Shown: piece after piece, positions 2,532 to 33,610 of the stretch
How positions within the stretch are numbered: position 1 is the stretch's first letter
Layout: each line of letters starts with the position of its first letter
DNA from: an uncultured Desulfovibrio sp.
GTDB taxonomy: Bacteria > Desulfobacterota > Desulfovibrionia > Desulfovibrionales > Desulfovibrionaceae
NCBI RefSeq assembly: GCF_944324525.1
Contig: NZ_CALUWS010000021.1
Span: forward strand, 1-48,900
Direction of reading: 5' to 3'
DNA length: 48,900 nt
Made by a program: the position numbers and the translations under genes
Notes under the pieces: generated by a model
Seen by the model: the letters and a program-made list of their open reading frames with translations, nothing else
Database searches by the model: none
Told to the model about the DNA's origin: nothing

Positions 2532-3503
2532 ATGTACATCATTACCGGGGGCGCGGGCTTCATCGGCAGCGCCATGCTGTGGCAGCTCAATCAGCAGGGC
2601 ATCGACGACGTGGTGCTGGTGGATCATCTGGGCACGGACGACAAATGGCGCAATCTGGTCAAGCTGACCTATGCCGACTACATCCACCGGGAGCGTTTCC
2701 GCGACCTTCTCCTGCGTGATGCCCTGCCGTGGAAGGTGGAGGCCATCATCCACCTCGGCGCCTGCTCCGACACCACGGAGGCCGACGGCGACTTCCTCAT
2801 GGAGAACAACTTCCAGTTCAGCCGGGACATCTGCCGTTATGCCCTGGCCAAGGGCGCGCGCTTCATCCATGCCAGTTCCGCCGCCACCTACGGCGACGGC
2901 TCGCTGGGTTTCAGCGACGATCCCGACCTGCTGCCGAAGCTGCGGCCGCTCAACCTCTATGCCTATTCCAAGCACCTGTTCGACCTCTGGCTGGTGCGCC
3001 ACGGGCTGGAGAAGGAGGTGGCGAGCCTCAAGTTCTTCAATGTCTACGGCCCCAACGAATACCACAAGGGCGAGATGCGCAGCGTCGCCTGCAAGGCCTA
3101 CAAGCAGATCACCAAGCATGGCGATCTGGAACTTTTCCGTTCCACCAGTCCGGATATCTCCGACGGCGAGCAGAAGCGGGACTTCGTCTACGTCAAGGAC
3201 TGCACGGCCCTCATGAGCTGGCTGCTGGAGAACCGCCACGTCAACGGCATCCACAACGTGGGCAGCGGCCGGGCCCGCAGCTTCAACGATCTGGGCCGAG
3301 CCGTGTTCAGCGCCATGCAGCGCTCCTGCCGCATCACCTATGTGGACATGCCGCGCATGCTGCACGGCAAGTATCAGAACTTCACCCAGGCGGACATGAA
3401 CTGGCTGGACAAGGTGGGCTGCCCCCTCAAGATGACCAGCCTCGAGGACGGCGTGACGGATTTCGTGCAGAATTACCTGTCGCAGCCCGACCCCTATCTT
3501 TAG
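2532..3503 (+). CDS. hldD: ADP-L-glycero-D-manno-heptose-6-epimerase (323 aa)
   Basis: It converts ADP-D-glycero-D-manno-heptose to the L-glycero form, the last step in making the nucleotide heptose for LPS inner core. It is an extended SDR protein: the nucleotide-binding motif GGAGFIGS is at residues 6-13, the catalytic Y-x3-K is YAYSK (143-147), and the family-typical stretches HLGACSDTTE (75-84), KFFNVYGPNE and GEMRSVACKAY are present. Its length matches the family (about 310-330 aa). The start has GAGGAGG eight bases upstream. It is monocistronic here, divergent from sufC. Its TAG stop codon is also the first three bases of repeat A1. Its presence implies a heptose-containing LPS core. 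Confidence 0.95.
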   Translation: MYIITGGAGFIGSAMLWQLNQQGIDDVVLVDHLGTDDKWRNLVKLTYADYIHRERFRDLLLRDALPWKVEAIIHLGACSDTTEADGDFLMENNFQFSRDICRYALAKGARFIHASSAATYGDGSLGFSDDPDLLPKLRPLNLYAYSKHLFDLWLVRHGLEKEVASLKFFNVYGPNEYHKGEMRSVACKAYKQITKHGDLELFRSTSPDISDGEQKRDFVYVKDCTALMSWLLENRHVNGIHNVGSGRARSFNDLGRAVFSAMQRSCRITYVDMPRMLHGKYQNFTQADMNWLDKVGCPLKMTSLEDGVTDFVQNYLSQPDPYL

Positions 3504-3610
3504 GGCCTGTTGAAACGAATTTTACAAACAATTTTAATGGGTAAAAAAGAAAATCGTTCACGTTCCATTTGTCTTTGGGGCGGGGACGCCTCGTGTTCCT
3601 GACGCTTCCC
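3501..3610 (+). repeat. Family A MITE-like repeat, copy A1 (left part)
   Basis: It begins TAGGGCCTGTTGAAAC, with the TAG being the hldD stop codon. It continues through an AT-rich segment containing TTTTACAAA and then a GC-rich block containing GCCTCGTGTTCCTGACGC. The same order of blocks is found at 5396-5539 and 33493-33610. A segment matching the right end of copy A2 (CCTTCCCCCAACAAACAGCG and onward) lies at 4097-4133, so A1 may be split by later insertions in 3611-4096. No coding capacity. Confidence 0.7.
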
Positions 3611-3746
3611 ACGGTAAAAGCACGCTGGGGAAGAGATGGAGGCTTGAGGGGAAGGATGACGAGAACGCCTTTTCTCGCTTCCTGCGAAAAGACTGGCCCC
3701 TCCCGTGCCGGCGGCGATCCGACGGGCGGCCGGAGGCCGTGTCCGT

Positions 3747-3788
3747 TAGGCGACGAAGGAGCCTTACGGACATCGACAGCAGAGCGCG
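3747..3788. repeat. 42-bp direct repeat, copy 1
   Basis: Identical over 42 bp to 4047-4088, exactly 300 bp away. It starts TAGGCGACGAAGGAG and ends CAGCAGAGCGCG. Flanking bases differ on both sides, so the repeat has sharp limits. Confidence 0.9.
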
Positions 3789-3967
3789 ACCGAAAGGCGG
3801 CCCGGAGGGCCGTGCCCGTTAAGGTCAGGACTCATTATCAGGCAATATGTTCTGACTGAGATATTTTTATAACTTGTTGTAAAATAAATACTTATTTTTA
3901 TAATCTGAGGTTTTTTGTTTCCAATTACTTTTACCCAAGTAGCGGGTTTTGGGGAAGATGGGGGAGT

Positions 3968-4023
3968 GTGAGGGGGAAGAAACCCCTTTTTGCCGCGAGC
4001 AAAAGGGGTTTCTTCCCCCTCAC
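3968..4023. repeat. Perfect 23-bp stem hairpin, purine-rich arm
   Basis: Arms 3968-3990 (GTGAGGGGGAAGAAACCCC plus TTTT) and 4001-4023 are perfectly complementary around a 10-nt loop. It sits between convergent hldD and the methyltransferase gene, so it could act as a bidirectional terminator or transcript end. It resembles the hairpins at 28877-28926 and 48300-48352. Confidence 0.85.
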
Positions 4024-4046
4024 AAAAGAGTAATGAGTCCTGAGCC

Positions 4047-4088
4047 TAGGCGACGAAGGAGCCTTACGGACATCGACAGCAGAGCGCG
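4047..4088. repeat. 42-bp direct repeat, copy 2
   Basis: Second copy of the 42-bp unit at 3747-3788; identical sequence. Confidence 0.9.
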
Positions 4089-4123
4089 GGGGTCCCCTTC
4101 CCCCAACAAACAGCGAAGAGTGT

Positions 4124-4269
4124 CGACAGGCCGCATGGTTTGGAACGCTTGCCTTCCAAACCATGCGGCCTGTCGTTGTGCGGAAAAAGCGCCGTCACTC
4201 CGCTCATGTCGGGCCGGGCGACTTGTACCGCCGCCTCGTGTCCCGCCTTTTCACCGGCAAAACGTTCTA
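4124..4269 (-). repeat. Family B MITE-like repeat, copy B1
   Basis: On the minus strand it starts TAGAACGTTTTGCC, where TAG is the methyltransferase stop codon. It continues through the family B core (GAGGCGGC, GCCCGGCC, GAGCGG, CTTTTTCCGC, CGACAGGCCGCATGG). Its far end is altered: a perfect 22-bp palindrome (4124-4145 and 4154-4175, 8-nt loop) replaces the usual terminal repeat and joins a family A right end. It is co-directional with the gene it follows. Confidence 0.8.
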
Positions 4270-5244
4270 TGCGTCCTTGCGGGCAACCACGGTCAGGGTC
4301 AGCCCTCTACCGAGACTTTCCGCCACCCTGTCGATGACGGGCGTAAAGAGGGTGCGGTCAAACCAGCAGACGGCTCGGGTCAATGCGGAAGGTCTGCCGC
4401 GCAGCATGCCGCAAAATTCGGGCCGGCGGCCGGGGGCTCTGTGCTGGGCGACGATATCGGCCAGCGGTTCGCCGGCAAGGCGTTTGAGCAGAAAGACCAG
4501 CAGCCCCCTGTGGCTGCCCGTGAAGATCTTCTGGTCGAAGCAGTGCCGGACAGGCTGCATGCCGTATTCCCGCAGCAGCCGGTCGAAGCTGCGGGGCGTG
4601 AAGAGGTTGAGGTGACGGGGGATGTCGTCCCCCTGCATATAACGGCCGGGGATGCTGTCAAAATTGGTGACAAGGGCGATGAAGATGCCGCCGGGCTTGA
4701 GCATGCGGGATATGTTGCGCATGGTGTCCCGCAGATCGTAGACATGCTCCATGACGGCCCAGGCCGTGATGACGTCAAAGGAGTTGTCGTCGTAGAGCCC
4801 GGCAAGGTCGCCGCCGTACTGGATGGGAAGGCCGCTCTGGTTGCTGAGCGATGTCGTCCAGTCGTATCCGTGGGCGGTCCAGCCCTGTTGCTGCGCATAA
4901 GCCACGAATTCCCCGCCGGCGCAGCCAAGGTCAAGCAGCCGTCCGCCCGCGGCCTGCCCCGCATGGGCGCGGACAAGCTCCATCTTGTGGCGCAGGGGGG
5001 CCTCCTGTCCCGAGCTGTCGTGGTTGGTGGCGTAGAAAGTGGGCGGATAGAAGGTACGCAGAGCGGCTTCCGTCGGTCTGTCCAGGATGTAGCCCATGCC
5101 GCACGTCCTGCAGCGGACGATGGTAAAGACATGCGGTGAGCAGCAGAACCGCAGATCGGGACGCCGGAAGGCGAGGGAATAGTCGTCGCTCCGGCAGACA
5201 GGGCAGAGGGCATGCTCCACGTTCAGGGGGGCTTCGCTCATCAT
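4267..5244 (-). CDS. Class I SAM-dependent methyltransferase with N-terminal zinc ribbon (325 aa)
   Basis: An N-terminal four-cysteine zinc ribbon (C14, C17, C45, C48) is followed by a class I SAM-binding fold: motif I LLDLGCAGGEF (about 103-113) and post-motif segments with SFDVITAWAVMEHV and MLKPGGIF. Such zinc-ribbon methyltransferases are common in polysaccharide clusters, where they act on sugars, but the substrate is unknown. The start at 5244 (MMSEAP) has GGAG upstream; in-frame sequence further upstream lies in repeat B6 and is not family-like. It is last in the minus-strand glycan cluster, 292 bp after the preceding gene. Its TAG stop forms the end of repeat B1. Confidence 0.85.
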   Translation of the reverse strand: MMSEAPLNVEHALCPVCRSDDYSLAFRRPDLRFCCSPHVFTIVRCRTCGMGYILDRPTEAALRTFYPPTFYATNHDSSGQEAPLRHKMELVRAHAGQAAGGRLLDLGCAGGEFVAYAQQQGWTAHGYDWTTSLSNQSGLPIQYGGDLAGLYDDNSFDVITAWAVMEHVYDLRDTMRNISRMLKPGGIFIALVTNFDSIPGRYMQGDDIPRHLNLFTPRSFDRLLREYGMQPVRHCFDQKIFTGSHRGLLVFLLKRLAGEPLADIVAQHRAPGRRPEFCGMLRGRPSALTRAVCWFDRTLFTPVIDRVAESLGRGLTLTVVARKDA

Positions 5245-5536
5245 GTCGGCTCCATGTCGTCCATGTCGTTTATTTTTTGTCAGCGCAAAGGTCTTGCGCC
5301 GTGTCCCGCTTCGCCCCGAATGGGGGAAACGACGAACGCCTGTCCTTAGAGCGTTTCCAGTTTGAAACGCTTTGCGTTCCAAACCCTACGACCCGTAGAG
5401 TGTCAACACAAATTTTACAAATGATTTTGATAGATAAACTAAATAAGCCATGCACGCTCCGCTTGCCTTTGGGACAGGGTTGCCTCGTGTCCCTGATCCT
5501 TCCCCCAAAAACAAGCAGCGAATAGTGTTAACAGGC
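5245..5536. other. Gene-free gap holding repeats B6 and A2
   Basis: 292 bp between two co-directional genes of the glycan cluster. About 195 bp of it is a truncated family B element joined to a family A element. The remaining 100 bp (5245-5346) shows no gene or recognised motif. Confidence 0.7.
5347..5395 (-). repeat. Family B repeat, truncated copy B6
   Basis: Only the distal third is present: the terminal TAGAGCGTTT and the stem GTTTGAAACGC / GCGTTCCAAAC. It is joined directly to family A copy A2. It is oriented with transcription on the minus strand, like the other family B copies. Confidence 0.7.
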
Positions 5537-5539
5537 CTA
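5396..5539 (+). repeat. Family A MITE-like repeat, copy A2 (most complete)
   Basis: Left end TAGAGTGTCAACACAAATT, AT-rich middle with TTTTACAAATGATTTT, GC-rich block GGTTGCCTCGTGTCCCTG, right end AGTGTTAACAGGCCTA. The right end read on the minus strand, TAGGCCTGTTAACA, matches the left end of A1 (TAGGGCCTGTTGAA), giving an imperfect terminal inverted repeat. The CTA at 5537-5539 is the stop codon (TAG) of the minus-strand glycosyltransferase. Confidence 0.75.
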
Positions 5540-6847
5540 AAAAATCAAGCCGGCCCGTGTGGCTGAGGGGATGCACCGGCGATACCACTGGCAGCCGCGA
5601 ACCATGCTGTTCCCCTGGTTGTACAGAGCAAGGCGCTGCGGGTCCTGCTCAGGGATAAACTGGCGGCTGAAGAAGGGATAGAAGAACAGCCGCATCTTGT
5701 TTTCTTCAGCTTCCGGATCGGCAAGATAATCCAGGATCTGCTGGCAGCGTTTGGCGGGGGAATACTGTTCCGCAAGATAGCGGGGGCCTTCGGCGGCAAG
5801 CTGGTTCCGGCGGCGCTGGTCGAGGATGAGCTGGGCCAGCGTTTCCGGAGCGCTTTCCGTCCGCAGGGTGACGACGGGCGCACTCATGAAGCCGTCGATA
5901 TCGTTGTGCCGCCACCAGCGATCGCGCAATTCCTCGAAGCTGCCGGAAAAGCCCAGGAGGCGCATGGTCATGGCGGCGTAACGGTCAAAGAGCTTTCGCG
6001 CGTGCGTTATGCCGTAGTCGGCCACCACGCAGCCCGCCGCCAGGGCTTCGTATACGCTTCGGCCGCTGTACTGCATGGAGTTGCAAAAGATGTCCGCTGA
6101 AGCGAACTCTTTAGCCATTTCCCCGTGGGGGATGCCCTGGATCATCTTGAAGCCGAACTGTAGTCCCAGACTACGCAGCGCCTCAAGCGTTTGCAGGAGG
6201 GGGACGGTTCCTTTGGCGGCCGTTTTGGAAGGCGCATGCAGGATGACCGGGACCTGGCGTTGCGGAGGATGCGGCAGCGGATCTTCCGGCGCCGCATACA
6301 GCCAGCCGCCGGAAACCATGCTGGGGCGCAGGCCCATGCGGGCCACGCCGATGAGCAGGTCGGCATAGCGCTCGGCCATGCGGAGATAGTTCAAACGCTG
6401 CTGCAGACTTGCCAGGTCTTTCGCCAGATAGCCGGTGGCGGTGGCCATTTCATCTTCCTTGCCGGCCTGTTCTTCCACTTCCGGTTCACGGATCTCCGAG
6501 CCGCAAAAGCGAACGACGATCTTCTTGCCGAGCTTTTTCAGCTCGGGCAGGTCGCTGGCATCTTCCCGGAAACTGTTCCAGATGAACATGCAGACGTCGG
6601 CTTCCAGCGCCTTTTGCCAAGCGTGTCGCCGCACATTCGTCGCATAGGCTCTACGTTCCTGCTCCGTGGCCTGGCGGCGGGCGAAGCGGGTATTCACGAC
6701 ATGGGCGATGTTCAGGTCCACGGCGTCGCTCGTGATGGCGCTCGATGACTCCGTGACGCAAAAGACTTCGTGCCCCAATGCCCTGAAGCCGGCGCCGTAG
6801 TCGGACATCAGGCTGCCGGTATTCTGCATGCCGATAAATATTTTCAT
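5537..6847 (-). CDS. GT-B fold glycosyltransferase, GT4-like (436 aa)
   Basis: The N-terminus (MKIFIGMQNTGS, then YGAGFRALGHEVF) looks like a GT-B acceptor domain. The C-terminal half has the GT4-style donor region: PVILHAPSK, ADIFCNSMQY and SVYEALAAGCVVADYG, resembling the E-x7-E region, though divergent. It probably transfers a sugar in glycan or LPS assembly; donor and acceptor are unknown. The start at 6847 has AGGAG seven bases upstream. The gene lies 93 bp downstream of the radical SAM gene on the same strand. Its stop codon TAG coincides with the end of repeat A2. The last 25 residues (after NQGNSMVRG) are unlike typical GT4 ends and have no clear counterpart. Confidence 0.72.
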   Translation of the reverse strand: MKIFIGMQNTGSLMSDYGAGFRALGHEVFCVTESSSAITSDAVDLNIAHVVNTRFARRQATEQERRAYATNVRRHAWQKALEADVCMFIWNSFREDASDLPELKKLGKKIVVRFCGSEIREPEVEEQAGKEDEMATATGYLAKDLASLQQRLNYLRMAERYADLLIGVARMGLRPSMVSGGWLYAAPEDPLPHPPQRQVPVILHAPSKTAAKGTVPLLQTLEALRSLGLQFGFKMIQGIPHGEMAKEFASADIFCNSMQYSGRSVYEALAAGCVVADYGITHARKLFDRYAAMTMRLLGFSGSFEELRDRWWRHNDIDGFMSAPVVTLRTESAPETLAQLILDQRRRNQLAAEGPRYLAEQYSPAKRCQQILDYLADPEAEENKMRLFFYPFFSRQFIPEQDPQRLALYNQGNSMVRGCQWYRRCIPSATRAGLIF

Positions 6848-6940
6848 AAGCGAACTCCTGCGCTTCGGTAACTTCTGCGGATCTTGCGGAGCCTGCCGGC
6901 CCCGGCAGCGCGAAAACCGCCGCGCCTGCGGGCATCGGCC

Positions 6941-8233
6941 CTACGAGGTCTGTCCGCCGCGGGAGGTCGCCTCGATGAAGAAGGCCCCTACCTGCTGCAG
7001 GCCGCGCGGGTTGCCGCCGGCACGGATCCGGGCGTCAAGCTGCCGCATGAGCGAATGCGGCGCGAAAAAGCCGAGCAGGACACGGGCGCGCCTGCCTTCC
7101 TCCGGGTCGAGGGCGGCAAATGTCGTGACGGGGAGACCGTCGACGACCGTCTGCCCCAGGGCCGGGGAATCGTCGATGAAGCCGCGTACCGGCAGACCTT
7201 TGCCGGCAAGGATGGTGCGGATGTGCCTGCCGAGCCAGCCCGCTCCATAAATATAGATGGGCTCGCCCGCAGCCGCGGACATGTCCTGCCTGTCCAGGAA
7301 GGCAAAGAAGGCCTGGAGCTCTTCTTCGTTTTCCAGCGCGCACTTGATGGCGTTCTGTCCCTGTACGCCGGCCTTATGGCATTTCTGACAGAAGGGGAAG
7401 TCCTGCTTCAGGCGGTGGATCTCTTCGGCCGTCAGATCAAGAAAGTCGCCGACTTGGCCGAATGCGTGATAGGTGGCGAAATTGCAGCAATAGATCTTTG
7501 CCGCATAGTTGATGAAAAGGATGCTTTCCTGATTGTGGCAGACGCCCGAGGAGAAGGCCGGGGTGGGGACGACCCGCCAGAAGTCCCGCGTCAGCAGGCG
7601 CGACAGGAGGGGCGCGGCTTCGGCGGGCGGGGTGTATTCCCTGCCGGACGTGACGGCTTCCAGAATGTCCCCGTAGGGGAAATAGGTCGCGGGAAAGCTC
7701 CTGAACTGGAAGCCGAGGTTTTCGGCAAATTCCTGCATGAGCAGCTCTTCTTCCGCGTTGTCGTTATAGCGCAGGAACTTGACGTAAACCTTTCCGTCAT
7801 GCCGCATTTCCGCCATGCGGCGCATGTTGCTTTTGACGATCTCCATATGGCCCCGGGCATGCCCCTTTATGTAGGTCTCCTGCGTAAAGGCGTCGAGGGA
7901 GATGTCCAGACGTTCCAGCGCCGGATGTTCGATGATGGGGGCAAGGTCCCGCTGCGTGTTGAGGTTCGTGCTGATCTCCACGGTCAGGCCCTGTTCCGCG
8001 GCGGCATCCAGCACGCCGGGCAGGTCGGGGTGCAACAGGGGCTCGCTGAGGCAATAGAGCGGTATGCGGGGATTGCCGTAATCTCTGGCGATCTTGGCAA
8101 AGACGCGGCGGCAGAAGTCCACAGGGGCATAGCGCAGCTTGCCTGTCCGGGAGATGTGTTCCGCCGGGCAGGACTGGCAACTCAGGTTGCATTGATCCAC
8201 GATGGAAAAGGTGATCATATCATACGAAGGCAT
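6941..8233 (-). CDS. Radical SAM/SPASM-like protein with C-terminal Rossmann-like domain (430 aa)
   Basis: The radical SAM cluster motif is CNLSCQSC (C15, C19, C22), followed by family features such as LYCLSEPLLHPD and VEISTNLNTQ. Later cysteines (VCHNQ, IYCCNF, FCQKCHKAG, roughly residues 225-295) look like a SPASM-type auxiliary cluster. From residue 324 a separate domain begins with IYIYGAGWLGRHI and ends near 420; it resembles the nucleotide-binding N-terminal domain of sugar-modifying PglD-like or NDP-sugar proteins. The start lies 1 nt after the stop of the next radical SAM gene (TGATATG), so the two are coupled. The reaction is unknown; the setting suggests a glycan or nucleotide-sugar substrate. 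Confidence 0.82.
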   Translation of the reverse strand: MPSYDMITFSIVDQCNLSCQSCPAEHISRTGKLRYAPVDFCRRVFAKIARDYGNPRIPLYCLSEPLLHPDLPGVLDAAAEQGLTVEISTNLNTQRDLAPIIEHPALERLDISLDAFTQETYIKGHARGHMEIVKSNMRRMAEMRHDGKVYVKFLRYNDNAEEELLMQEFAENLGFQFRSFPATYFPYGDILEAVTSGREYTPPAEAAPLLSRLLTRDFWRVVPTPAFSSGVCHNQESILFINYAAKIYCCNFATYHAFGQVGDFLDLTAEEIHRLKQDFPFCQKCHKAGVQGQNAIKCALENEEELQAFFAFLDRQDMSAAAGEPIYIYGAGWLGRHIRTILAGKGLPVRGFIDDSPALGQTVVDGLPVTTFAALDPEEGRRARVLLGFFAPHSLMRQLDARIRAGGNPRGLQQVGAFFIEATSRGGQTS

Positions 8234-8234
8234 A

Positions 8235-9818
8235 TCAGTTCCCCTGGTTTTTCAAGAAGGCGGCACGCTGCCGGATGCTTTTTTCCAGCCGGCTCACAAG
8301 ATCGTCAAAGCCCAGATGTTTTGCCATGACGTTGGCCTTGATCAGGTTGAGCATCTTCATTTCCTGCACATGGACGCCGGGATGCCGCTGCTTGTAGGCG
8401 GCAACCGCATCCCGTACGCCGCCGCCCATGTAATGGGCAAGGGCCGCCCGTACGCGCGGGTGATGCGGAAGGAAATATTCCTGCTTGACGTACTCCCGGC
8501 CGTTGAGCGGAGAGACGTGCTGCGACGTCTGCGCCGGATAGCGGGGATTCATGAAGGCAAAGGAGCCGGGATAGGACTGGATGAACATGTTCATGACGGC
8601 GATGCCGTTCATTTCCTGCACGTCGACAAGCCGTTCGAGGTTCAGGCGCACGTCTTCGGGCTCGGCTTCCGGGACGCAGACCATGAAGTTGACGCCGGAC
8701 TCGATATCCAGACTGTCGGCCGCTCGCAGCAAGTCCATGATGATGGGATCGTTATAGCCCTTTTTGTGCATGATGGGCGTCAGGAGCATGTTTTCCGAAA
8801 AGTTTTCCACGCCGAAACTGATCCGGTGGAAGCCGGCGGCCTTCATCAGGCGGAGGATCTCCATGTCCGGCCGCCGTGTCTTCAGATCGAGGAAATCCAC
8901 GACGCGGGACTGGCAGAAAAAGGCCATCTGCTGCGGCAGCCTGCCGCGCTGTTTGAGATCGACGACCCGGCGGCAGAATTCCCGCGTGAAGCGCTTGGGG
9001 CTTGTGAAGTCGTCGTCATGGATATTGAAAAAGGAGATGCCGTATGTGGAGTGGTAAAAATCGACAAGGTCGATGACCTCATCCACGCTCAGGCCGAAGG
9101 AGGCGCAGCCCTTGCCGTACACCTGCTCAAGAAAGTTGGAGGAACTGCAGTAGCCGCAACGGTTGGGGCATTTGTGCGAGGTGAAGAGACGCCAGGCCTT
9201 GAAGGCCCGGTAGCGGGAGCTCTCCACGCCTTTTTCCGGCTCCTGCCCGGACAGGGAGGGCAGCCATGCCGCCGGGATGCCCATTTCCTTGGCCGAGGTA
9301 TAGTTCAGTTCCCTGAAGAGTTCCGCGGTGAGCGGCTGCGCGGGATTTTCCTGTATGTTCGCGCCGTTGCGCCACGTCAGCCCCGGGACGTCCGTAAGGT
9401 CGGGGACGCCGCCCGCCGCCTTTTCGAGGCTTTGGGCAAGCTTGAGCATGGGAAGTTCGCCGTAGCCGCGGATAACGCCGTCAAAGCCCAGATCGAGCCA
9501 GAACGCGGCCGCGCGGCTGGGCGCCTGCCCCCCCGCGCAGGTGAAGGCCCCGCACGCGGCGGCGGCCTTCCAGTAGGGAAGGAAGGTCTGCAGCTCCTTC
9601 TCAAGGAAGACGTATGTGCTGCTCAAGCCGATAAGGGCGTATTCGCCGCGCTCCGCCCGGGCAAGATATTCCTTGTCGTCGTCAAGGCCGATCTCGCAGA
9701 TGTCGCAGCGCACACCATGATGCCGCAGATAATGCGCGATTCTGTGCAGGCCCAGATTGCGGGACTGGGTCTCCACCTGTTCCTCATGGACAGCCAGCAA
9801 AAGGACAGCCATATTCAT
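8235..9818 (-). CDS. B12-binding-domain radical SAM protein (527 aa)
   Basis: The N-terminal 140 residues have the Rossmann layout of cobalamin-binding radical SAM enzymes (HRIAHYLRHHGV, YALIGLSSTYV, GFDGVIRGYGELP). The radical SAM motif CPNRCGYC is at 217-224, followed by FFNIHDDDF, ISFGVENFSENML and SGVNFMVCVPEAEPED. A DxHxxG cobalamin-ligating motif is not visible, so any bound cobalamin may lack a histidine ligand, or the domain may be structural. An alternative start at 9812 (residue 3) is possible; GAGGTG upstream fits either. It is coupled to the downstream SPASM-like gene. The substrate is unknown; possible roles are C-methylation or rearrangement of a sugar or lipid. Confidence 0.82.
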   Translation of the reverse strand: MNMAVLLLAVHEEQVETQSRNLGLHRIAHYLRHHGVRCDICEIGLDDDKEYLARAERGEYALIGLSSTYVFLEKELQTFLPYWKAAAACGAFTCAGGQAPSRAAAFWLDLGFDGVIRGYGELPMLKLAQSLEKAAGGVPDLTDVPGLTWRNGANIQENPAQPLTAELFRELNYTSAKEMGIPAAWLPSLSGQEPEKGVESSRYRAFKAWRLFTSHKCPNRCGYCSSSNFLEQVYGKGCASFGLSVDEVIDLVDFYHSTYGISFFNIHDDDFTSPKRFTREFCRRVVDLKQRGRLPQQMAFFCQSRVVDFLDLKTRRPDMEILRLMKAAGFHRISFGVENFSENMLLTPIMHKKGYNDPIIMDLLRAADSLDIESGVNFMVCVPEAEPEDVRLNLERLVDVQEMNGIAVMNMFIQSYPGSFAFMNPRYPAQTSQHVSPLNGREYVKQEYFLPHHPRVRAALAHYMGGGVRDAVAAYKQRHPGVHVQEMKMLNLIKANVMAKHLGFDDLVSRLEKSIRQRAAFLKNQGN

Positions 9819-14980: not shown

Positions 14981-15123
14981 TAGGTGAGCGTTGTTTCCGT
15001 GTGGAGCGCTTCGCGCTCCACTCCGTTCGGCCTGGCGTTTCGCGGAAAAAAGCGATTTTTCCGTTTACGTTGGGCCGGGCGGCGCTGCGCGGCCGCCTCG
15101 CGTTATAAAGGCAAAACGCTCTA
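14981..15123 (-). repeat. Family B MITE-like repeat, copy B2
   Basis: On the minus strand it runs from TAGAGCGTTTTGCC (TAG being the dehydrogenase stop codon) to a distal end near GGAAACAACGCTCACCTA. The three family B stems are present. The third stem is GTGGAGCGC / GCGCTCCAC, where other copies have GTTTGGAACGC / GCGTTCCAAAC, so both arms changed together. Oriented with transcription. Confidence 0.85.
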
Positions 15124-22758: not shown

Positions 22759-23892
22759 ATGAACATCTGGAAACGCATTCTGGCCGGAGGCGCACTGTGC
22801 GCCGTGGCCCTGGGGCTTGCGGCTCCGGCTCTTGCCGAGACCATCAAGCTGGGTCTCATGTGTCCGCTGACAGGCAAATGGGCCTCCGAAGGGCAGGACA
22901 TGAAAAATATCGTCAGCCTGCTGGTGGACGAGACCAATGCCGCCGGCGGCATCAACGGCAAGAAGATCGAGCTGGTGGTGGAGGACGACGCCGGCGATCC
23001 GCGTACGGCGGCGCTGGCGGCCCAGAAGCTTGCCGGGGCCGGCGTCATCGCCGTCATCGGCACCTACGGCTCGGCCGTGACGGAAGCCAGCCAGAACATC
23101 ATCGCCGAGTCCGGGCTCGTGCATGTGGGGACGGGCTCCACCAGCATCCGGCTCACCGAAAAGGGCCTGCCGCTCTTTTTCCGCACCTGCCCCCGCGATG
23201 ACGCGCAGGGCGCGGCGGCGGCCGCCGCCATCGTCAAGGGCGGCTTCAAGAAGGTCGCCCTGCTGCACGACAAGTCTTCTTACGCCAAGGGCCTTGCCGA
23301 CGAAAGCCGCAAGGCGCTGGAGAAGGCCGGCGTGGAGATCGTTTTTTATGACGCCCTGACGCCCGGCGAGCGCGACTACACGGCCATCCTCACCAAGCTC
23401 AAGGCCGCCGCGCCCGACGTGGTGTTCTTTACCGGCTACTACCCCGAGACCGGCATGCTCCTGCGTCAGAAGAAGGAAATGGGCTGGGACGTGCCCATGA
23501 TGGGCGGCGATGCCGCCAACCATCAGGATCTCGTGAAGATCGCGGGAGCCGAGGCCGCCCGGGGATACTTCTTCATCAGCCCGCCCCTGCCGCAGGACAT
23601 GGACACGCAGGAAGCCCGGCATTTCCTGGAAGCCTACAAGGCTCGTTACCAGACCGTCCCCGTCTCCGTGTGGGCCGTGGTGGCCGGCGATGCCTACAAG
23701 GTCATCGAGGCCGCCCTTGCCGCCGGCAAGACCGACCCGGAAGACATGGCCGAGTGGCTCAAGCAGCTCAAGGACATGCCCGGCCTGACCGGCAAGCTCG
23801 GTTTTGACGAGAAGGGCGACCGTGTGGGCGAATTCTACCGCTCCTACATGGTGGACGAGCAGGGGAAGTTCGTTCTTCTGCCGCAGCAGTAG
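22759..23892 (+). CDS. livJ: Branched-chain amino acid ABC transporter substrate-binding protein (377 aa)
   Basis: The periplasmic receptor of a high-affinity Leu/Ile/Val uptake system. A signal peptide (MNIWKRILAGGALCAV through PALA) is cut before ETIKLG. The mature protein has the type I periplasmic-binding fold: GLMCPLTGKWASEGQDM, INGKKIELVVEDDAGDPRTA, AVIGTYGSAVTEA and VVFFTGYYPETGMLLRQ. The start at 22759 has GGGGG upstream. The stop codon TAG is also the first three bases of repeat B3, which fills most of the 249-bp gap before livH. That gap may allow livJ to be made in excess of the membrane parts. Confidence 0.93.
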   Translation: MNIWKRILAGGALCAVALGLAAPALAETIKLGLMCPLTGKWASEGQDMKNIVSLLVDETNAAGGINGKKIELVVEDDAGDPRTAALAAQKLAGAGVIAVIGTYGSAVTEASQNIIAESGLVHVGTGSTSIRLTEKGLPLFFRTCPRDDAQGAAAAAAIVKGGFKKVALLHDKSSYAKGLADESRKALEKAGVEIVFYDALTPGERDYTAILTKLKAAAPDVVFFTGYYPETGMLLRQKKEMGWDVPMMGGDAANHQDLVKIAGAEAARGYFFISPPLPQDMDTQEARHFLEAYKARYQTVPVSVWAVVAGDAYKVIEAALAAGKTDPEDMAEWLKQLKDMPGLTGKLGFDEKGDRVGEFYRSYMVDEQGKFVLLPQQ

Positions 23893-24037
23893 AGCATGTT
23901 GCCTTTGAACAAGGTGAGATGCGAGGCGGCGGCACCGCGCCGCCCGGCCAAAGCCAAGCGGAAAAAACGCGTTTTTTCCGCGAAACGACAGGCCGCATGG
24001 TTTGGAACGCAAAGCGTTGCAAACTGAAGATGCTTTA
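23890..24037 (+). repeat. Family B MITE-like repeat, copy B3 (full length)
   Basis: 148 bp from TAGAGCATGTTGCC (TAG being the livJ stop codon) to GAAGATGCTTTA; the two ends form an imperfect inverted repeat (TAGAGCATGTTG / TAAAGCATCTTC). Internal stems: GGCGGCG / CGCGCCGCC, the self-complementary GCGGAAAAAACG/CGTTTTTTCCGC (about 23957-23980) and GTTTGGAACGC / GCGTTGCAAAC. Oriented with livJ transcription. Confidence 0.9.
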
Positions 24038-27492: not shown

Positions 27493-27499
27493 CAGCGGG

Positions 27500-27566: not shown

Positions 27567-27569
27567 AAA

Positions 27570-27605
27570 GAGCGTTTCCCCTTGCGGAGGAAACGCTCTT
27601 TTTTT
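27570..27605 (+). terminator. Intrinsic terminator of the liv operon
   Basis: AGAGCGTTTCC (27570-27580) and GGAAACGCTCT (27590-27600) form an 11-bp perfect stem with a 9-nt loop, followed by a six-base T-run. Confidence 0.9.
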
Positions 27606-27665
27606 CCATGCCGCCGGGAGACCATAGACCGAGGTCTGTCCGGCGGGGGCGCGTCGGCGTGTCAC
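27570..27665 (+). repeat. Repeat D1 (terminator plus conserved tail)
   Basis: A terminator hairpin followed by CATGCCGCCGGGAGACC and ending near GCGTCGGCGTGTCAC. The same arrangement recurs at 28741-28840 (D2), where the tail is CATGCCGTCGGGGGACC through GCGCCAGCGTGTCAT. The two flank the orphan membrane protein gene. Confidence 0.65.
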
Positions 27666-27841
27666 TTTTTCGAACAGTAGCCTGGGGAAGAAGAGGGCTT
27701 TTCTTCCGCTGGTGGCTTGTGTAGTCTGCAAGGAGCGAAGCCCCTTCCATGAAGGGACAAAGAGGAAGGGCGGGCGGCGCTGGGAAAGCACGATAACGCC
27801 GGTTTCCGGAGCACGACAGACGGCAAAAGGGAGGAGAGGTG

Positions 27842-28651
27842 ATGGCATCCCGAGTGCGCAGCCTTGTGGAAGCGACACTTTCCTCGACATGGTTCAAGGT
27901 CGTGCTGTTTCTTGTGGCCGTGCCTCCTCCAGCTGGTCTTTCTGCATGCTCTTATGCCGTTAGCGAGTGGGTGCTGCCTGGTGCCGCTCTTGTGATCGGT
28001 TTTCTGGTGTGCAAGGCTATCGTCTGGAAAAAACGCCCACGCGAAGAAACGGCGGCGCATGATCCGTGGTTCATCATGGTGCTGCTTCTTGTCGCCAGTC
28101 ATGGCATCATGATAAGCACGTTCATCTGCCTGGGCTTCTTCCTTCTCCTTGCCCCATACGGTTACACCCCGCCGCTGTACCTGGCGTTGGGCTTCATCAT
28201 TTACCGGGCGGCGCTTCAAGCGGAGCCGGGTCCCGTAGAGCTGTTCCGTCCGAAAAATCCCTGGCTCGGGGTACTGCTGATCCTCATTGGCTTTCCTGCC
28301 GTGACGGTCTATCTCTCAGGCTTCATCATCTCTCAGGCCATTGTTTTGCCGCTGCATCTGACACTCTTTGCGCTGCTCTGTCTGTTCAGCGTCATCGTGT
28401 ACATGGCTGGTCGCCGCCGGAGGAAAGAACGAGGAGATGGTGGAAAACGAGGGAAAAATGCGTGGCTTTCGCTCCTGCTGCACCTCATGATCTTTCTCCC
28501 GCTGCCTTTTGCAGAAATTTTTTTCCTTGACGGCAACCGTTTTCTCCGCCGCATATGGCCCCCTCTGGAGTTACTTCCCTTGCTTCTTGCTTTGATCTTC
28601 TGCGGCTACAAGGCCATGACCTGGAAGCAGCGTCAGCAGGCGGAAAGGTAA
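27842..28651 (+). CDS. Hypothetical multi-pass membrane protein (269 aa)
   Basis: Not recognised as a named family. About six hydrophobic segments are visible (VVLFLVAVPPPAGLSAC, ALVIGFLVCKAIVW, FIMVLLLVASHGIMISTFIC, LGVLLILIGFPAVTVYLSGF, LHLTLFALLCLFSVIVYMAG, LLPLLLALIFCGYKAM). They are separated by basic stretches (GRRRRKERGDGGKRGK), so it is an inner-membrane protein. The ATG at 27842 with GAGGAG upstream is preferred to an in-frame GTG one codon earlier. It stands alone, with its own terminator at 28676, between two related repeats (D1, D2). Its composition is somewhat less GC-rich than the liv genes. A recently acquired cassette is possible. Confidence 0.7.
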   Translation: MASRVRSLVEATLSSTWFKVVLFLVAVPPPAGLSACSYAVSEWVLPGAALVIGFLVCKAIVWKKRPREETAAHDPWFIMVLLLVASHGIMISTFICLGFFLLLAPYGYTPPLYLALGFIIYRAALQAEPGPVELFRPKNPWLGVLLILIGFPAVTVYLSGFIISQAIVLPLHLTLFALLCLFSVIVYMAGRRRRKERGDGGKRGKNAWLSLLLHLMIFLPLPFAEIFFLDGNRFLRRIWPPLELLPLLLALIFCGYKAMTWKQRQQAER

Positions 28652-28675
28652 CGTGTCCCCACGACCAGCAAATCA

Positions 28676-28705
28676 AAACCACCCGCATAGCGGGTGGTTT
28701 TCTGT
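28676..28705 (+). terminator. Intrinsic terminator of the orphan membrane protein gene
   Basis: AAACCACCCGC (28676-28686), loop ATA, GCGGGTGGTTT (28690-28700), followed by TCTGTTT. Perfect 11-bp stem 24 bp after the stop codon. Confidence 0.88.
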
Positions 28706-28740
28706 TTCGCGCCCTGGGCGCTCTGGCTAACGCCATAATA

Positions 28741-28840
28741 AAAAAGCGTTTCCCTCCAGCGAAGGATACGCTTTTTTTGTCATGCCGTCGGGGGACCACC
28801 GACTGGGGGCTGGCCGATGGTGACGCGCCAGCGTGTCATC
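28741..28840 (+). repeat. Repeat D2 (terminator-like hairpin plus conserved tail)
   Basis: AAAAGCGTTTCC and GGATACGCTTTT form a stem with one mismatch, followed by a T-run and then CATGCCGTCGGGGGACC. It matches D1 in order and partly in sequence. The junction of T-run and CATG(C/T)CG(C/T)CGGGGGACC also recurs in the 146-bp tandem units at the window's right end. Confidence 0.65.
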
Positions 28841-28876
28841 TTCCAAGGCAAGAGTTTTTGTGGGAGGAAAGGAGGC

Positions 28877-28926
28877 GCGGGGGAAAGGAGGGGGCTTTTT
28901 GCAAAAAGCCTCCTCCTTTCCCCCGC
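28877..28926. repeat. Long hairpin with purine-rich arm
   Basis: GCGGGGGAAAGGAGGGGGC plus TTTTT pairs with AAAAAGCCTCCTCC plus TTTCCCCCGC: 24 pairs with one mismatch around a TTGCAA tip. It lies 22 bp from the stop codon of the minus-strand permease gene and between convergent transcripts, so a bidirectional terminator role is likely. Confidence 0.85.
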
Positions 28927-28947
28927 AAAAGAAAACGAACCCTTCAC

Positions 28948-29616
28948 TCAGCGTGCGCCAAAGCCGGGGATGTAGAAGCGCTTTTCCAGCCAGCGGAGCA
29001 GCCAGGTGGCCAGGGTGACCATGACGAGATAGTAGGCGCCGACGGCAAGGAAGACCTCGGTAAAGCGGAAGGTATCCGACGCGACCACCTTCCCCTCGCC
29101 CATGAGTTCCATGCAGGTGACCAGATAGGCCAGGGAGCTGTACTTGATGAGGTAAATGATCTCATTGCCGCAGCCGGGCAGGGCGCGCCGGGCCGCCTGC
29201 GGGATGACGATCCAGACGATGGTCTGGAGCGAGTCCATGCCCAGGGCCTGCGCGGCCTTGATCTGCCCCTGTCGGATGGAGAGCAGCGCGCCGCGGATAT
29301 ACTCCGACTGATAGGCGGAATTGCAGAGGATGAAGCTGATGAGCGAAGCCCCGTAGGGCTCGAAGTAGATGCCTACCTTGGGCAGGGCGAAGTAGATCAT
29401 CATGAGCTGCACGGCCAGGGGCACGCCGCGGATGATGGACGTGTAGGCATCGCCGAGGCGACGGGCCCAGGGGCTGCCGAAAGCGCGTACGCAGCCCAGC
29501 AGGATGCCGCCGATGAAGCCGAGCAGACCGGACGGGACGATGAGCGCGATGCTGACGAGCAGGCCCCGGTTGAGCGCGGGCAGAAGCTCCTGAGATACAA
29601 AGGCCGCATCAAACAC
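28948..29616 (-). CDS. Polar amino acid ABC transporter permease (222 aa)
   Basis: A HisM/GlnP-type inner-membrane permease. The EAA loop is visible as GQIKAAQALGMDSLQTIVWIV (about residues 118-138), with RGVPLAVQLMMIYFALP typical of the family and about five hydrophobic segments. The start codon is GTG (29616) with GGGAG upstream, 2 nt after the ATPase stop. It is last in a four-gene operon (receptor, permease, ATPase, permease). Its C-terminus (WLEKRFYIPGFG) closely parallels that of the other permease (ALENRVHIPGYS), so the two are paralogues forming a heterodimer. Confidence 0.92.
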   Translation of the reverse strand: MFDAAFVSQELLPALNRGLLVSIALIVPSGLLGFIGGILLGCVRAFGSPWARRLGDAYTSIIRGVPLAVQLMMIYFALPKVGIYFEPYGASLISFILCNSAYQSEYIRGALLSIRQGQIKAAQALGMDSLQTIVWIVIPQAARRALPGCGNEIIYLIKYSSLAYLVTCMELMGEGKVVASDTFRFTEVFLAVGAYYLVMVTLATWLLRWLEKRFYIPGFGAR

Positions 29617-29618
29617 GG

Positions 29619-30404
29619 CTAGGCTCCCATCTCCAGAAGGTGCTTGCAGAAATCCCGCGTACGGGTGGCGCTGCCTTCGGCCAGCAGCACGTCGGGCGCG
29701 CCCTGTTCGATGATGATGCCCTGTTCCATGAACAGTATCTCGTGAGCCAGGGCCCGGGCAAAATCCATCTGGTGGGTGGCCATGAGCATGGTCATGCCGC
29801 CGCGGGCAAGATCCTTGATGACGGCCAAGACTTCGCCCACAAGCTCGGGGTCGAGGGCCGAGGTGGGCTCGTCCAGCAGGATGACCTTGGGATCCATGGC
29901 CAGAGCGCGCGCGATGGCCACGCGCTGCTTTTGCCCGCCGGAAAGCTGGGCGGGGTACAGCCCGGCACGACGGCTCATGCCGACACGGCCGAGCTCTTCC
30001 TGCGCTCGGCGCTGCGCGTCCTGCCGGTTCATGCCGCGCACCTTGCGCAGGGCGATGGCCACGTTCTCTTCCGCGGTCAGGTGGTCGAAGAGGTTGAAAT
30101 CCTGAAAGATCATCCCCACCTGTGCCCGGAAGGCGCAGAGGGCGCGCCTGTCGGCGACATTAAGTGCGCGGCCTTCCAGGAGAATCTTTCCCTCGTCCGG
30201 GGGGATAAGGCAGTTGATGCACTGGAGCAAGGTGCTTTTGCCGGCCCCCGAAGGGCCGATGAGTACCTTCAGCTCGCCCCGGTTCAGCGTCAGGGAGCAA
30301 TCCTGCAGAATGGGCTTGCCGCCAAGCTTCTTGGAAAGGTGGGCCACCTGCAGGACCGGGCTCGCGCCGGTTTTCTTGGAAAGTTGGGCAACAGTTTCGC
30401 TCAT
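29619..30404 (-). CDS. Polar amino acid ABC transporter ATPase (261 aa)
   Basis: GlnQ/HisP-type ATPase: Walker A GPSGAGKSTLLQCIN (about 52-66), Q-loop MIFQDFNLFDHLTAEEN, signature LSGGQKQRVAIARAL, Walker B VILLDEPTSALDPEL, H-loop MATHQMDFARAL. About 20 extra N-terminal residues (MSETVAQLSKKTG) precede the usual start, but GGGGT lies before the ATG at 30404. It sits between the two permease genes with 2-nt gaps on each side. Confidence 0.94.
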   Translation of the reverse strand: MSETVAQLSKKTGASPVLQVAHLSKKLGGKPILQDCSLTLNRGELKVLIGPSGAGKSTLLQCINCLIPPDEGKILLEGRALNVADRRALCAFRAQVGMIFQDFNLFDHLTAEENVAIALRKVRGMNRQDAQRRAQEELGRVGMSRRAGLYPAQLSGGQKQRVAIARALAMDPKVILLDEPTSALDPELVGEVLAVIKDLARGGMTMLMATHQMDFARALAHEILFMEQGIIIEQGAPDVLLAEGSATRTRDFCKHLLEMGA

Positions 30405-30406
30405 GC

Positions 30407-31099
30407 TTACCCCGCCGCTCCCATGCCGACCGTGCCGCCGGTGGAATAACCGGGGATGTGGACCCGGTTTTCCAGAGCGCGCAGGAGCTTCAGCACCACG
30501 AGCGTGAGAATGAAGTAGATGACGCCCGCAAGGGCGAAAAGAGCAAGATGCTCATGGGTCCGCTGGGCCACGGCCGTGGCGCGGGACATGATCTCCTGCG
30601 TGCCGAGGACATAGCAGACGGCGGAATCCTTGAGAAGGATGGAAAATTCATTGGCCCAGCCGGGAAGCGAGAGGCGCAGCGCCTGCGGAAGGATGATGCA
30701 GGTTATGCTGCAGCCGTCGGTCATGCCGAGCGCGCGGGCGGCCCTGAGCTGGCCCTGGGGCAGGCTTTCGATGGCGCCGCGAAAGATCTGAGACTGGTAG
30801 GCCGTGCTGATGCAGCCCATGACGAGACAGGAGGCGAGAAAGGGCGGTACGGCAAGTCCGAGACTCATGCACAGGCCGTAGCTGAGGAAGAGCAGCACCA
30901 GGATGGGGACGCCGCGGAAAAACCAGACATACAGCCCGACGGCGGCCCGAACCAGCGTTCCGCCGTAGACCTGTCCCACGGCCAGAGGGATGCCGAGCAC
31001 GAGCCCCATGCCGAGGGCCAGCGCCACGGCGCTGACGGTGGTCAGCGTTCCGCCGAGGATGAAGGGCAGGGCATCCCAGATGACTTGCAGTGAATTCAT
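30407..31099 (-). CDS. Polar amino acid ABC transporter permease (230 aa)
   Basis: HisQ/GlnP-type permease with the EAA-loop GQLRAARALGMTDGCSITCII (about 121-141) and FFRGVPILVLLFLSYGL. Five hydrophobic segments are visible. The ATG at 31099 (MNSLQVIW) was chosen over an in-frame TTG at 31108 that lacks a ribosome site. A strong 14-bp hairpin lies in the 100-bp gap between it and the receptor gene, which probably allows unequal expression. Confidence 0.9.
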   Translation of the reverse strand: MNSLQVIWDALPFILGGTLTTVSAVALALGMGLVLGIPLAVGQVYGGTLVRAAVGLYVWFFRGVPILVLLFLSYGLCMSLGLAVPPFLASCLVMGCISTAYQSQIFRGAIESLPQGQLRAARALGMTDGCSITCIILPQALRLSLPGWANEFSILLKDSAVCYVLGTQEIMSRATAVAQRTHEHLALFALAGVIYFILTLVVLKLLRALENRVHIPGYSTGGTVGMGAAG

Positions 31100-31129
31100 G
31101 TCGTCCAAATGGTTGATGGGAGAGACAGG

Positions 31130-31161
31130 GGCAAGGCCGCCACATCTGTGGCGGCCTTGCC
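31130..31161 (-). promoter_or_regulatory. Intercistronic hairpin between receptor and permease genes
   Basis: GGCAAGGCCGCCAC (31130-31143) and GTGGCGGCCTTGCC (31148-31161) form a perfect 14-bp stem with a 4-nt loop. No U-run follows, so it is not a standard terminator. Such stems after receptor genes commonly protect the upstream mRNA or limit read-through. Confidence 0.8.
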
Positions 31162-31199
31162 GTCGTCAGCACAGGCGGGCCGCTGGCCCGGGCCTGGAC

Positions 31200-31940
31200 T
31201 TACTTGCGCAGATACTTGTCCTGCAGTTCCTTCCAGTACGGATCGGCCTGGAGCTTGCGGAAACCTTCGTCGATAAGGGCGCGAAGTTCGGTATCGCCCT
31301 TGCGGATGGCCACGCCGAATTCGTCCGGCGCGCCGTGGGTGCCGGCCTTCTTGACGGCCTTGCCCTTGGCGATGGAATCCTCGGCCGGGAGCTGGTCCAT
31401 GAGGGCGGCGTCGATGCGGCCGTTGAGCAGGTCTTCCACGGCCAGGGGGCAGGATTCATAGAAACGCAGCTCGAAGGGATAGCCCTTTTCCTTCTGTTCC
31501 TGCTTGATGGCGTCGGCTTCAGAGGTGCCGCGCTGCACGCCCAGCTTGATGGGCTTGGACAGGATGTCCGCAGGCGTGAGGGAGGAATCCTTCTTCACCA
31601 GGAACACGCGGGAGACCGTCCAGTAGGGATCGGAGAAATCCACCATCTTGCGGCGCTTTTCCGTGATGCTCATGCCGGAGCAGATCATGTCGATCTGCTT
31701 GTTGGCAAGGGCGGGGACGATGCCGTCCCAGGCCATGGCCTTGTGGGTGACCGTGAAGCCCATGGCCTTGGCGATCCAGTTCATGGCGTCCACGTCAAAG
31801 CCGGCGGGCTTGCCCGTTTTTTCGTCAATGTAGGCAAAGGGCGGATAGTTGGCGTCGATGCCGTTGACGTAGGTTTTGGCAAAGGCAGGCACAGCGGCCA
31901 GCAGCCCCAGCAGCAAGGTGCAAAGAAAGATTTTTTTCAT
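31200..31940 (-). CDS. Polar amino acid ABC transporter substrate-binding protein (246 aa)
   Basis: A type II periplasmic-binding protein (SBP_bac_3). The signal peptide ends PAFA (residues 18-21), followed by KTYVNGIDANYPPFAYIDE and GFDVDAMNWIAKAMG. Ligand-site landmarks are MICSGMSITEKR, VDFSDPYW and GVQRGTSEADAI. It likely binds a polar amino acid (Glu/Gln/Asp/His/Arg group); specificity is not decidable by eye. The ATG at 31940 starts the only credible signal peptide. It is first in the operon and has a candidate promoter at 31991-32019. Confidence 0.93.
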   Translation of the reverse strand: MKKIFLCTLLLGLLAAVPAFAKTYVNGIDANYPPFAYIDEKTGKPAGFDVDAMNWIAKAMGFTVTHKAMAWDGIVPALANKQIDMICSGMSITEKRRKMVDFSDPYWTVSRVFLVKKDSSLTPADILSKPIKLGVQRGTSEADAIKQEQKEKGYPFELRFYESCPLAVEDLLNGRIDAALMDQLPAEDSIAKGKAVKKAGTHGAPDEFGVAIRKGDTELRALIDEGFRKLQADPYWKELQDKYLRK

Positions 31941-31990
31941 GGTTGTCCCCGATTTCTGAAAAACAGCCGCAGGCACGGCAGAACGGGATT

Positions 31991-32019
31991 TTTCTAGCAG
32001 ATGGCGACCTTGGGCGCAA
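31991..32019 (-). promoter_or_regulatory. Candidate promoter of the amino acid transporter operon
   Basis: Minus strand TTGCGC (32019-32014), 17-bp spacer, TAGAAA (31996-31991), about 50 bp upstream of the receptor gene start. Confidence 0.5.
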
Positions 32020-32035
32020 GCCCGCAGCCTTTCCC

Positions 32036-32064
32036 TTGAGTTGTCCCGAGGATGGGTGTATGGA
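32036..32064 (+). promoter_or_regulatory. Candidate promoter of the sugar-phosphate transferase gene
   Basis: TTGAGT (32036-32041), 17-bp spacer, TATGGA (32059-32064), 27 bp before the proposed start codon. Confidence 0.35.
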
Positions 32065-32091
32065 ACAGGGATTCCCCATGATGGATACGAC

Positions 32092-33495
32092 ATGCTGCTG
32101 AACGCTTCCCTCGCTGACTTTCTGCGCCGGGTGGGATTCCCCCCCCAACAGCTTGTACTGTGCCTTGGCGACACGCTTACCCTGCTTCTGGTTTCCGCGC
32201 TGGTCTTGCTGGTGCGCAACCTGTTCGGTGGCGTGAACCTGGAACAGTACAGCTGGATGGTGCTCTTCATCATCGTGCTCATGCCGATCATCGGCTTTCT
32301 TTTCGGCCTGTACCAGACGCTGCCCCTGCCGCCCCATCGTGAGTTGCGCTCCCTTGTGCTGGCAGGCAGCATGGTGTTCGCCATGCTGCTGCTTTTCCTC
32401 TTTGCGGGCAAGAGCAGCATAAGCTATTCGCGGCTGGCTCTGCTGGGGTCCTGGGGGCTGAGCTGCGCGGCTCTGCCGTGCTGGCGCTTTCTGGCCCGGC
32501 GCTGGTGGGCCCGGCGGCGCTGGTGGGGGGCCCCGCTCATCATCCTCGACCGCAGCCAGCGGGGCAGGGCCTTCTGGCATTATCTCAAGCGCAATCCCCA
32601 GTACGGCCTGCTGCCCTGCGACATCATGTCGCTTCCCGATGACCGGGAAGCGCTGACGGCCAGTCTGGAAAGGTGCGTGCGGCGCTATCCGGACGCCACC
32701 GCGCTGCTGCTGCTCGACGCCGCGCAAACGGTCGACGGGGGGTATCTTTCGCTGGTCAGCCGCCATTTCAGCAAGACGCTGGTGGTGCCCCGCTTTGATG
32801 CCGGGATGCAACATTTCTGGCTGACGCCCTGCGACCTTGGGCTGCATACGGGCCTGCTGGTCAAGCAGAACCTGCGCAGCCGCTGGCGCTGCCATTTGAA
32901 GCGCTTGCTGGATCTGGGCATCTGCCTGCCGCTGGCGGTGCTCCTGCTGGTGCCGGGCCTGTGCATCGCGCTGGCTATCCGGCTGGACAGCCGGGGACCG
33001 GCCATCTACCGGCAGCGCCGCCTTGGGCAGGGCGGGAAGGAGATCCGCATCTGCAAGTTCAGGACCATGATCGTCAATGCCGATGCGGCGCTTGCTCGCT
33101 ATCTGGATGAACGGCCGGAACTGCGCGCCGAGTGGGAGCGTGACCACAAGCTCAAGCATGATCCGCGGGTGACGCGGGTGGGGGCCTTCCTCCGCAAGAC
33201 CAGCCTTGACGAACTGCCGCAGCTCATCAATGTGCTGCTGGGGGACATGAGCCTTGTGGGGCCGCGTCCCATCGTCGAAGGGGAAAGGAAAAAGTACGGA
33301 CTGGTCTACGAGAACTACTGCCGGGTACGGCCCGGCGTCACCGGTCTCTGGCAGGTCTCCGGCCGCAACAACACCTCGTATGAGGAACGGGTGGCCCTGG
33401 ATAACTACTATGTGACCAACTGGTCGGTCTGGATGGATCTCTGGATCCTGGGCAAGACGCCCTTTGTGGTTGTGACCGGGTACGGGGCGTACTAG
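32092..33495 (+). CDS. Undecaprenyl-phosphate sugar-1-phosphate transferase, WbaP/WcaJ-like (467 aa)
   Basis: A polyprenyl-phosphate phosphoglycosyl transferase that starts O-antigen, capsule or exopolysaccharide repeat units by placing a sugar-1-phosphate on undecaprenyl phosphate in the inner membrane. Four N-terminal hydrophobic segments are followed by a central soluble region. Next come a membrane-entry helix ([18 protein letters not shown]) and the catalytic domain with [38 protein letters not shown] and [15 protein letters not shown]. Full length for WbaP-type enzymes. The ATG at 32092 was chosen (GGA upstream, weak); an in-frame TTG lies at 32041. The sugar is unknown. The stop codon TAG opens repeat A3. 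Confidence 0.9.
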
Positions 33496-33610
33496 GGCCT
33501 GGCAAGACAAGCTTTATAAATAATTTCAGCGGATAGCGGATAATCAGAGCGAGTCGTGCACGCCGCGCAGGCATTTGGGCGGGTTTGCCTCGTGTCCCCG
33601 ACTCTTCCCC
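33493..33610 (+). repeat. Family A MITE-like repeat, copy A3
   Basis: It begins TAGGGCCTGGCAAGACAAGC, TAG being the stop codon of the sugar-phosphate transferase. It continues through TTTATAAATAATTTC and the shared block GGTTTGCCTCGTGTCCCCG and ACTCTTCCCC. No right terminal repeat is seen; the sequence beyond (33611-33762) has small hairpins (GCACGC / GCGTGC) but no gene. Confidence 0.7.

Follow-up and report, generated by a model that had tools for sequence, protein, structure and literature searches.

Introduction

Miniature inverted-repeat transposable elements (MITEs) of the IS630/Tc1-mariner group, among them RUP of pneumococcus (PMC2229807) and MITEPlu5 of Photorhabdus (PMC6267812), are described as hairpin-forming elements with short terminal inverted repeats (TIRs) that target and duplicate a TA dinucleotide; their copies number from roughly one hundred to several hundred. 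TA duplication is also recorded for elements of the IS630 family itself (PMC2170065), and a title in the reference list of the same article gives their preferred TA as that in CTAG. The target of the insertion sequence (IS) IS5 is Py-T-A-Pu (hereafter YTAR), most frequently CTAG (PMC5493358), and the IS427 group of IS5 is mostly flanked by 2-bp repeats, with one of 4 bp (PMC3281130). RUP is over-represented between convergent genes (PMC3049150). Here we analyze four families of short repeats (A to D) in a gut Desulfovibrio, centered on a 48,900-nucleotide stretch of DNA (the window; contig C21 of a 2.9-Mb genome in 93 contigs) in which element ends form the TAG stop codons of genes.

YPAL repeats tend to sit just downstream of stop codons, and a GTAG tag is the defining feature of GTAG-tagged repetitive extragenic palindromes. 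In our families the base before the TA is mixed, with C or T commonest and G rare, which is not the GTAG pattern. YPAL/RU-2 is likewise a short repeat, but it lacks TA termini and has duplications of 3-26 bp (PMC2229807). In the published descriptions, RU-1 (ERIC) forms a fusion with the end of a gene (PMC2759123), and in Coxiella a stop directly precedes one QMITE2 copy (PMC5896051); these repeats likewise lie at 3′ ends, but in both cases the end of the protein is altered. The IS630/Tc1-mariner MITEs are like ours in target, TIRs, hairpins, copy number and TA duplication, which is probable for B; B and C are sequence families of their own, and the relevant passages on RUP and MITEPlu5 do not state a placement at stop codons. 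The YTAR preference of IS5 is also shared, with A and D being non-autonomous and the partner of A matched in part, and repeats of mostly 2 bp with one of 4 bp are also listed for the IS427 group, a candidate assignment. Searches of an open-access library turned up no description of element ends regenerating stop codons. The families reported here are further members of known MITE kinds in a well-documented neutral niche.

Element ends form TAG stop codons

We consider it very probable that the families are MITEs of two DDE transposon superfamilies that insert at TA, preferably within YTAR, duplicate it, and rebuild TAG when they land on a stop codon, leaving the protein unchanged, while insertions within genes are presumably purged. 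The starting point was a preliminary description of six repeats in the window, each beginning exactly at a TAG stop. Each of the six TAGs is the stop of a predicted gene and at the same time opens an element of family A or B as its first three bases. Pfam gives firm support for five of the six proteins, the glycosyltransferase having one weak match below cut-off. Genes were predicted with our own hexamer gene caller, seeded with ten window genes that include five of these six, for which the caller is not independent; a first caller, trained on the longest open reading frames, picked antisense frames and was replaced.

We extended the analysis to a sample of the genome comprising the window and 40 further stretches (842,996 bases, 29% of the genome; 654 predicted genes, of which 633 reach a stop). 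The 41 stretches are a non-random sample, drawn partly from contigs with copies already listed; this choice raises element density and should not fix the position of elements relative to stops. Ends were sought with fixed consensuses from which the TAG triplet was excluded, after iterated weight matrices had drifted into AT-rich noise, and reversed sequence served as the control. We found 382 matching ends (reversed control, 30), 133 of which are preceded by TAG. Their positions relative to predicted stops are sharply focused, with 41 at offset 0, three at -1, and between zero and three at any other offset from -60 to +80. Counting offsets 0 and -1, an end is present at 43/236 TAG stops, 1/142 TAA stops and 0/255 TGA stops; additional TAG stops followed by decayed A-like sequence are outside these counts. 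When genes with a score of at least 20 were considered, the TAs of TAR (TAA or TAG) stops carried an end more often (41/353) than TAs 1-100 nt downstream of stops (16/623; Fisher p=1.8e-8). The comparison of element ends with stop codons that the preliminary description had called for, made here on a sample of the genome, bears out its placement, and the reading it offered, in which elements that start with G and insert at a TA restore TAG and spare the protein, is supported by the absence of ends at TGA and by the empty sites and C-termini below.

The window itself is somewhat of a lucky cluster, with six of about eight elements (our own count) at stops, compared with 27 of 81 paired elements in the sample (P about 0.02). 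The same tendency is seen in congeners, in small numbers and in stretches several of which were picked for containing matches: TA ends lie at stops in 3/29 cases in G022, 1/2 in G008 and 3/5 in others, two of these last three being at gabD. We also considered the elements as a driver of TAG usage overall and found no support for this, as the G008 stretches hold few elements and still use TAG in 24 of 46 stops.

Insertion favors YTAR

Both non-stop elements and stops point to a longer target than TA alone. Among the 27 elements that lie away from stops and have TA at each end, 14 have YTAR as their target, whereas YTAR accounts for 482 of 4185 noncoding TAs (p=4e-7), and TAR stops carried an end 2.7-fold more often when preceded by a pyrimidine (31/176) than by a purine (13/202; p=0.001). 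Within 100 nt downstream of stops, 63 YTAR sites are free, and 15 ends are preceded by a pyrimidine and one by a purine. This downstream rate does not differ from that at YTAR stops (p=0.86, or p=0.57 if an estimated one third of the 15 is discounted as YTAY). Because YTAR sites just downstream are occupied about as often, recognition of stop codons is unnecessary, and the excess at stops is largely a target preference for YTAR, not for stop codons as such. Occupancy of noncoding YTAR overall is lower, at an estimated 5.5% or so, which may come from removal from upstream regions or from missed genes. The preliminary description was right about placement and TAG restoration, and did not see this preference or the involvement of two transposon superfamilies.

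Two transposon superfamilies

Judged by their ends, B and C resemble MITEs derived from IS630, while D looks like an IS5-family MITE and A is probably one as well, less surely. IS5-type transposase matches (PF13340) number two in this genome and are also found in five of seven congeners searched. The termini of D match those of the PF13340 element at G000:C45 at 18/18 bases of the right TIR and 16/18 of the left. IS630-type transposase (PF13358) is found in three of eight genomes (G022, G020 and G002), and a 995-bp PF13358 element in G022 matches the left and right ends of B and the left end of C at 16-19 of 24 bases, and the right end of C at 14-15 of 24. The MITEs may have been mobilized in trans by such transposases in the past.

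Single-TA empty sites

We queried 87 joined flanks; 18 matched across the junction, several of these being the site itself, and six were viewed in detail. For the D element of the window, the 12-base flanks joined with one TA are found exactly at two other places, and joined with zero or two TAs at none. For an A element nested in another repeat, the joined flanks give five matches with one TA and none with zero or with two. On L072 (13680 and 18082, minus strand), two paralogous genes differ in that one stop has A alone and the other C stacked on A at the TA before A; when the flank of C is rejoined with a single TA, it aligns with the paralogue over 89 gapless bases, of which 72 are identical. 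This is a filled and empty pair within a single genome. The TA target is thus duplicated upon insertion of C and D, and in this nested copy of A. B, for which 21 non-stop elements have TA at both ends, presumably does the same.

The livJ stop tells a similar story. Five Desulfovibrio congeners lack the B element there; four end in TAG or TAA at the same codon and the fifth, by our own reading, in TAG one codon earlier. Removing the element and one TA leaves a plausible native stop and hairpin, with the junction read by eye and alignment resuming only 25-46 nt beyond. As far as the eye can judge, livJ agrees with insertion at a single TA. Comparing empty sites, a check put forward in the preliminary description for sister strains and made here on nested copies, a paralogue and congeners, has yielded the expected one-TA junctions for D, one A and C, and by eye for livJ, and has not fixed the stop that preceded insertion.

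Other stops show varied occupation. At hldD, the same codon is TAG or TAA in five congeners and in G008, none of which has an A end there; one of the five has B-like sequence slightly further on. The window gabD protein is 93-97% identical to those of five Desulfovibrio metagenome genomes. In two of these the stop carries what looks like an orthologous copy of the B element, in a third a shorter B-like element, and in the remaining two a bare TAG, and the protein has 487 residues in all. G008 is bare as well, whereas small B-like hairpins occupy this stop in G002 and G017. That B-like elements of differing form hold this stop in several species (G000, L169, L171, L172, G002 and G017) suggests repeated or very old occupation. 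For the WbaP-like gene, four congeners gave a match: the stop is TGA in two, a bare TAG in one, and in the last a TAG exactly at which an apparent IS5-family end lies. That end is on L285, close to the contig end, and the sequence stops soon after.

A proposed model for harmless insertion

In the model that we favor, MITEs (IS630-like B and C, IS5-like D and probably A) insert at TA, preferably in YTAR, and duplicate it. The first inner base of the elements is G, so that an insertion into the TA of TAA or TAG rebuilds a TAG stop without changing the protein, whereas insertions inside genes are presumably purged. The regenerated stop can then receive further insertions, giving rise to stacks; selection appears to maintain its TA, and the far end drifts. 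The far ends fit this last step: they were scored as TA in 7/24 stop elements and in 61/89 non-stop rows, which hold some elements twice. Many of the ends that have been lost now show CAG or TGG, the outcome that C/T changes in CTAG would produce, and repair may account for such changes.

Such a rule, the product of a target motif and the spelling of stop codons, is a simple one for the build-up of harmless insertions in compact genomes. Elements of this kind can then serve many genes as a source of stop codons and RNA hairpins (element ends make up 43 of the 236 sampled TAG stops), and the rule cautions that repeats ending exactly at genes are not necessarily regulatory. As a tentative extension, which we hold possible and rather doubtful, stop codons could be self-regenerating safe harbors, where each landing rebuilds TAG and often YTAR, so that a site can be refilled by different elements in different species (as at gabD, the WbaP-like gene and the paralogous pair), and where hairpin-first orientation would be favored and mini-transposons would become 3′-end modules.

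Several observations weigh against insertion at TA with rebuilding of the stop. One A-like end (L016) begins one base beyond a TGA stop, and another nested A copy (L019, minus strand, around 3807) is flanked on either side by GTTA, so that the repeat there spans 4 bp instead of TA. Of the 382 ends, 51 lie within predicted genes, some surely being false matches. The termini of A match the PF13340 element at G000:C19 at only 11-14 of 20 terminal bases, and a PF13358 search found no IS630 transposase in this genome, so that we infer the mobility of B and C from congeners. TGA is found at 9/31 readable orthologue stops, one gene having it in all three congeners; some stops must then have changed type before insertion, and since stop type changes over this divergence, these relatives do not fix the pre-insertion stop. 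The far-end TA count at stops is low by at least one, a real TA of the element at 5539 having been missed when the pairing was off by a base. Lastly, A, B and C each show an orientation bias at stops, in post hoc comparisons on small numbers, which plain neutrality does not predict: A lies with its strong-hairpin R end first in a ratio of 15:3 at stops and 9:15 elsewhere (p=0.0045), B with its L end first in 16:7 and 32:45 (p=0.03), and C in 3:0 and 4:13 (p=0.03).

Alternative explanations

This orientation bias lends some weight to selection, and not target choice, as what concentrates the elements, which would be retained at stops as hairpin modules of the 3′ untranslated region that protect or terminate the mRNA. 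In example folds, the first 110 nt of an R-first A reach -60 kcal/mol and those of an L-first A -31, and 33/236 TAG stops, compared with 19/397 TAA and TGA stops, have a G-rich hairpin motif no more than 120 nt away. Other downstream YTAR sites are nonetheless occupied at a similar rate, the livJ and gabD sites retain beyond the element a hairpin-like sequence that is present in congeners, and no such element is present at livJ in five congeners. A scan of one region, at the livJ element, for an intrinsic terminator (a G+C-rich hairpin and T run on the gene strand) gave a sole match, which lies on the minus strand and scores no better than shuffled sequences. We therefore regard this explanation of the placement, raised as an alternative in the preliminary description, as unlikely: the YTAR preference suffices without it, while the orientation bias leaves room for possible co-option of the elements as 3′ hairpin modules. 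A far less probable proposal is that the transposase or MITE complex actively recognizes stop codons or terminating ribosomes. The per-TA rate at stops is about 4.5x that of nearby downstream TAs, as such recognition would have it, but the excess over nearby sites is not seen once the comparison is limited to YTAR, and purine-preceded stops are occupied less.

Insertion within a gene near its 3′ end is equally hard to credit as the general case. There TAG would be a new, premature stop, and an in-frame TA insertion anywhere in a gene would likewise yield a TAG at the boundary. The other frames would be expected equally, however, and the offsets of about -10 or -16 that read-through to the next stop within the element would produce were seen once each, against 41 at offset 0. 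For a comparison of orthologues, 28 of the 38 stop sites outside the window were listed and the 3′ ends of 23 genes set against three congeners. We retrieved 34 of 40 matches; nine of the 23 genes had no usable orthologue, and the other 14 were covered by 32 orthologue matches, one of the 32 reaching no stop. The 31 readable stops comprise 18 TAG, nine TGA and four TAA. C-terminal length is identical in 22/31 and within two residues in 29/31, the other two differing by 11 and 9, and the gabD and hldD stops fall at the same codon in five congeners. Within the 50 bases viewed by eye, no clear A, B or C end was found at any orthologue stop; one stop, in G006, starts TAGGCCTG and then diverges. 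With protein lengths unchanged, truncation is largely refuted.

Elements of the window and other features

Table 1. Repeat elements located in the window
Element	Position	Strand	Remarks
Family A (composite), left end at hldD TAG stop (3501-3503)	3501..4134	+	right end near 4134, without its TA
Family D MITE, 229 bp, nested at a TA within the A element	3820..4048	+	single-TA empty junction; ends match IS5-family element at C45
Family B; TAG 4267-4269 is the methyltransferase stop	4138..4269	-	far end fused to A end
Truncated family B end, directly adjoining the next A element	5347..5398	-	match 5350-5398
Family A, ~144 bp, R end at glycosyltransferase TAG stop (5537-5539)	5396..5539	-	
Family B at gabD TAG stop (15121-15123)	14990..15123	-	far end decayed, 14990 approximate
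Family B at livJ TAG stop (23890-23892)	23890..24037	+	TA at both ends
Family A left end at TAG stop (33493-33495) of WbaP-like sugar transferase	33493..33612	+	
Family B fragment after the A end of the WbaP-like gene	33623..33677	+	
Family B away from any stop, internal control	35340..35487	-	TA at both ends

The D element is a third element that splits the A element at hldD (Table 1). The element end at the glycosyltransferase stop reads TAGGCCTG, one G short. At the place corresponding to the internal control, no element was found in three congeners. An Rfam scan of the window gave no match above the gathering score except one tRNA. In the sample, the G-rich hairpin (GGGGGGAAGGGGAACCCC...) lies mostly 20-40 nt past stops and is enriched after TAG; it is part of the R end of A and is seen also where the terminal part is unrecognizable. 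At the end of the window (48505-48887) there are three 146-nt tandem repeats that are 94-98% alike.

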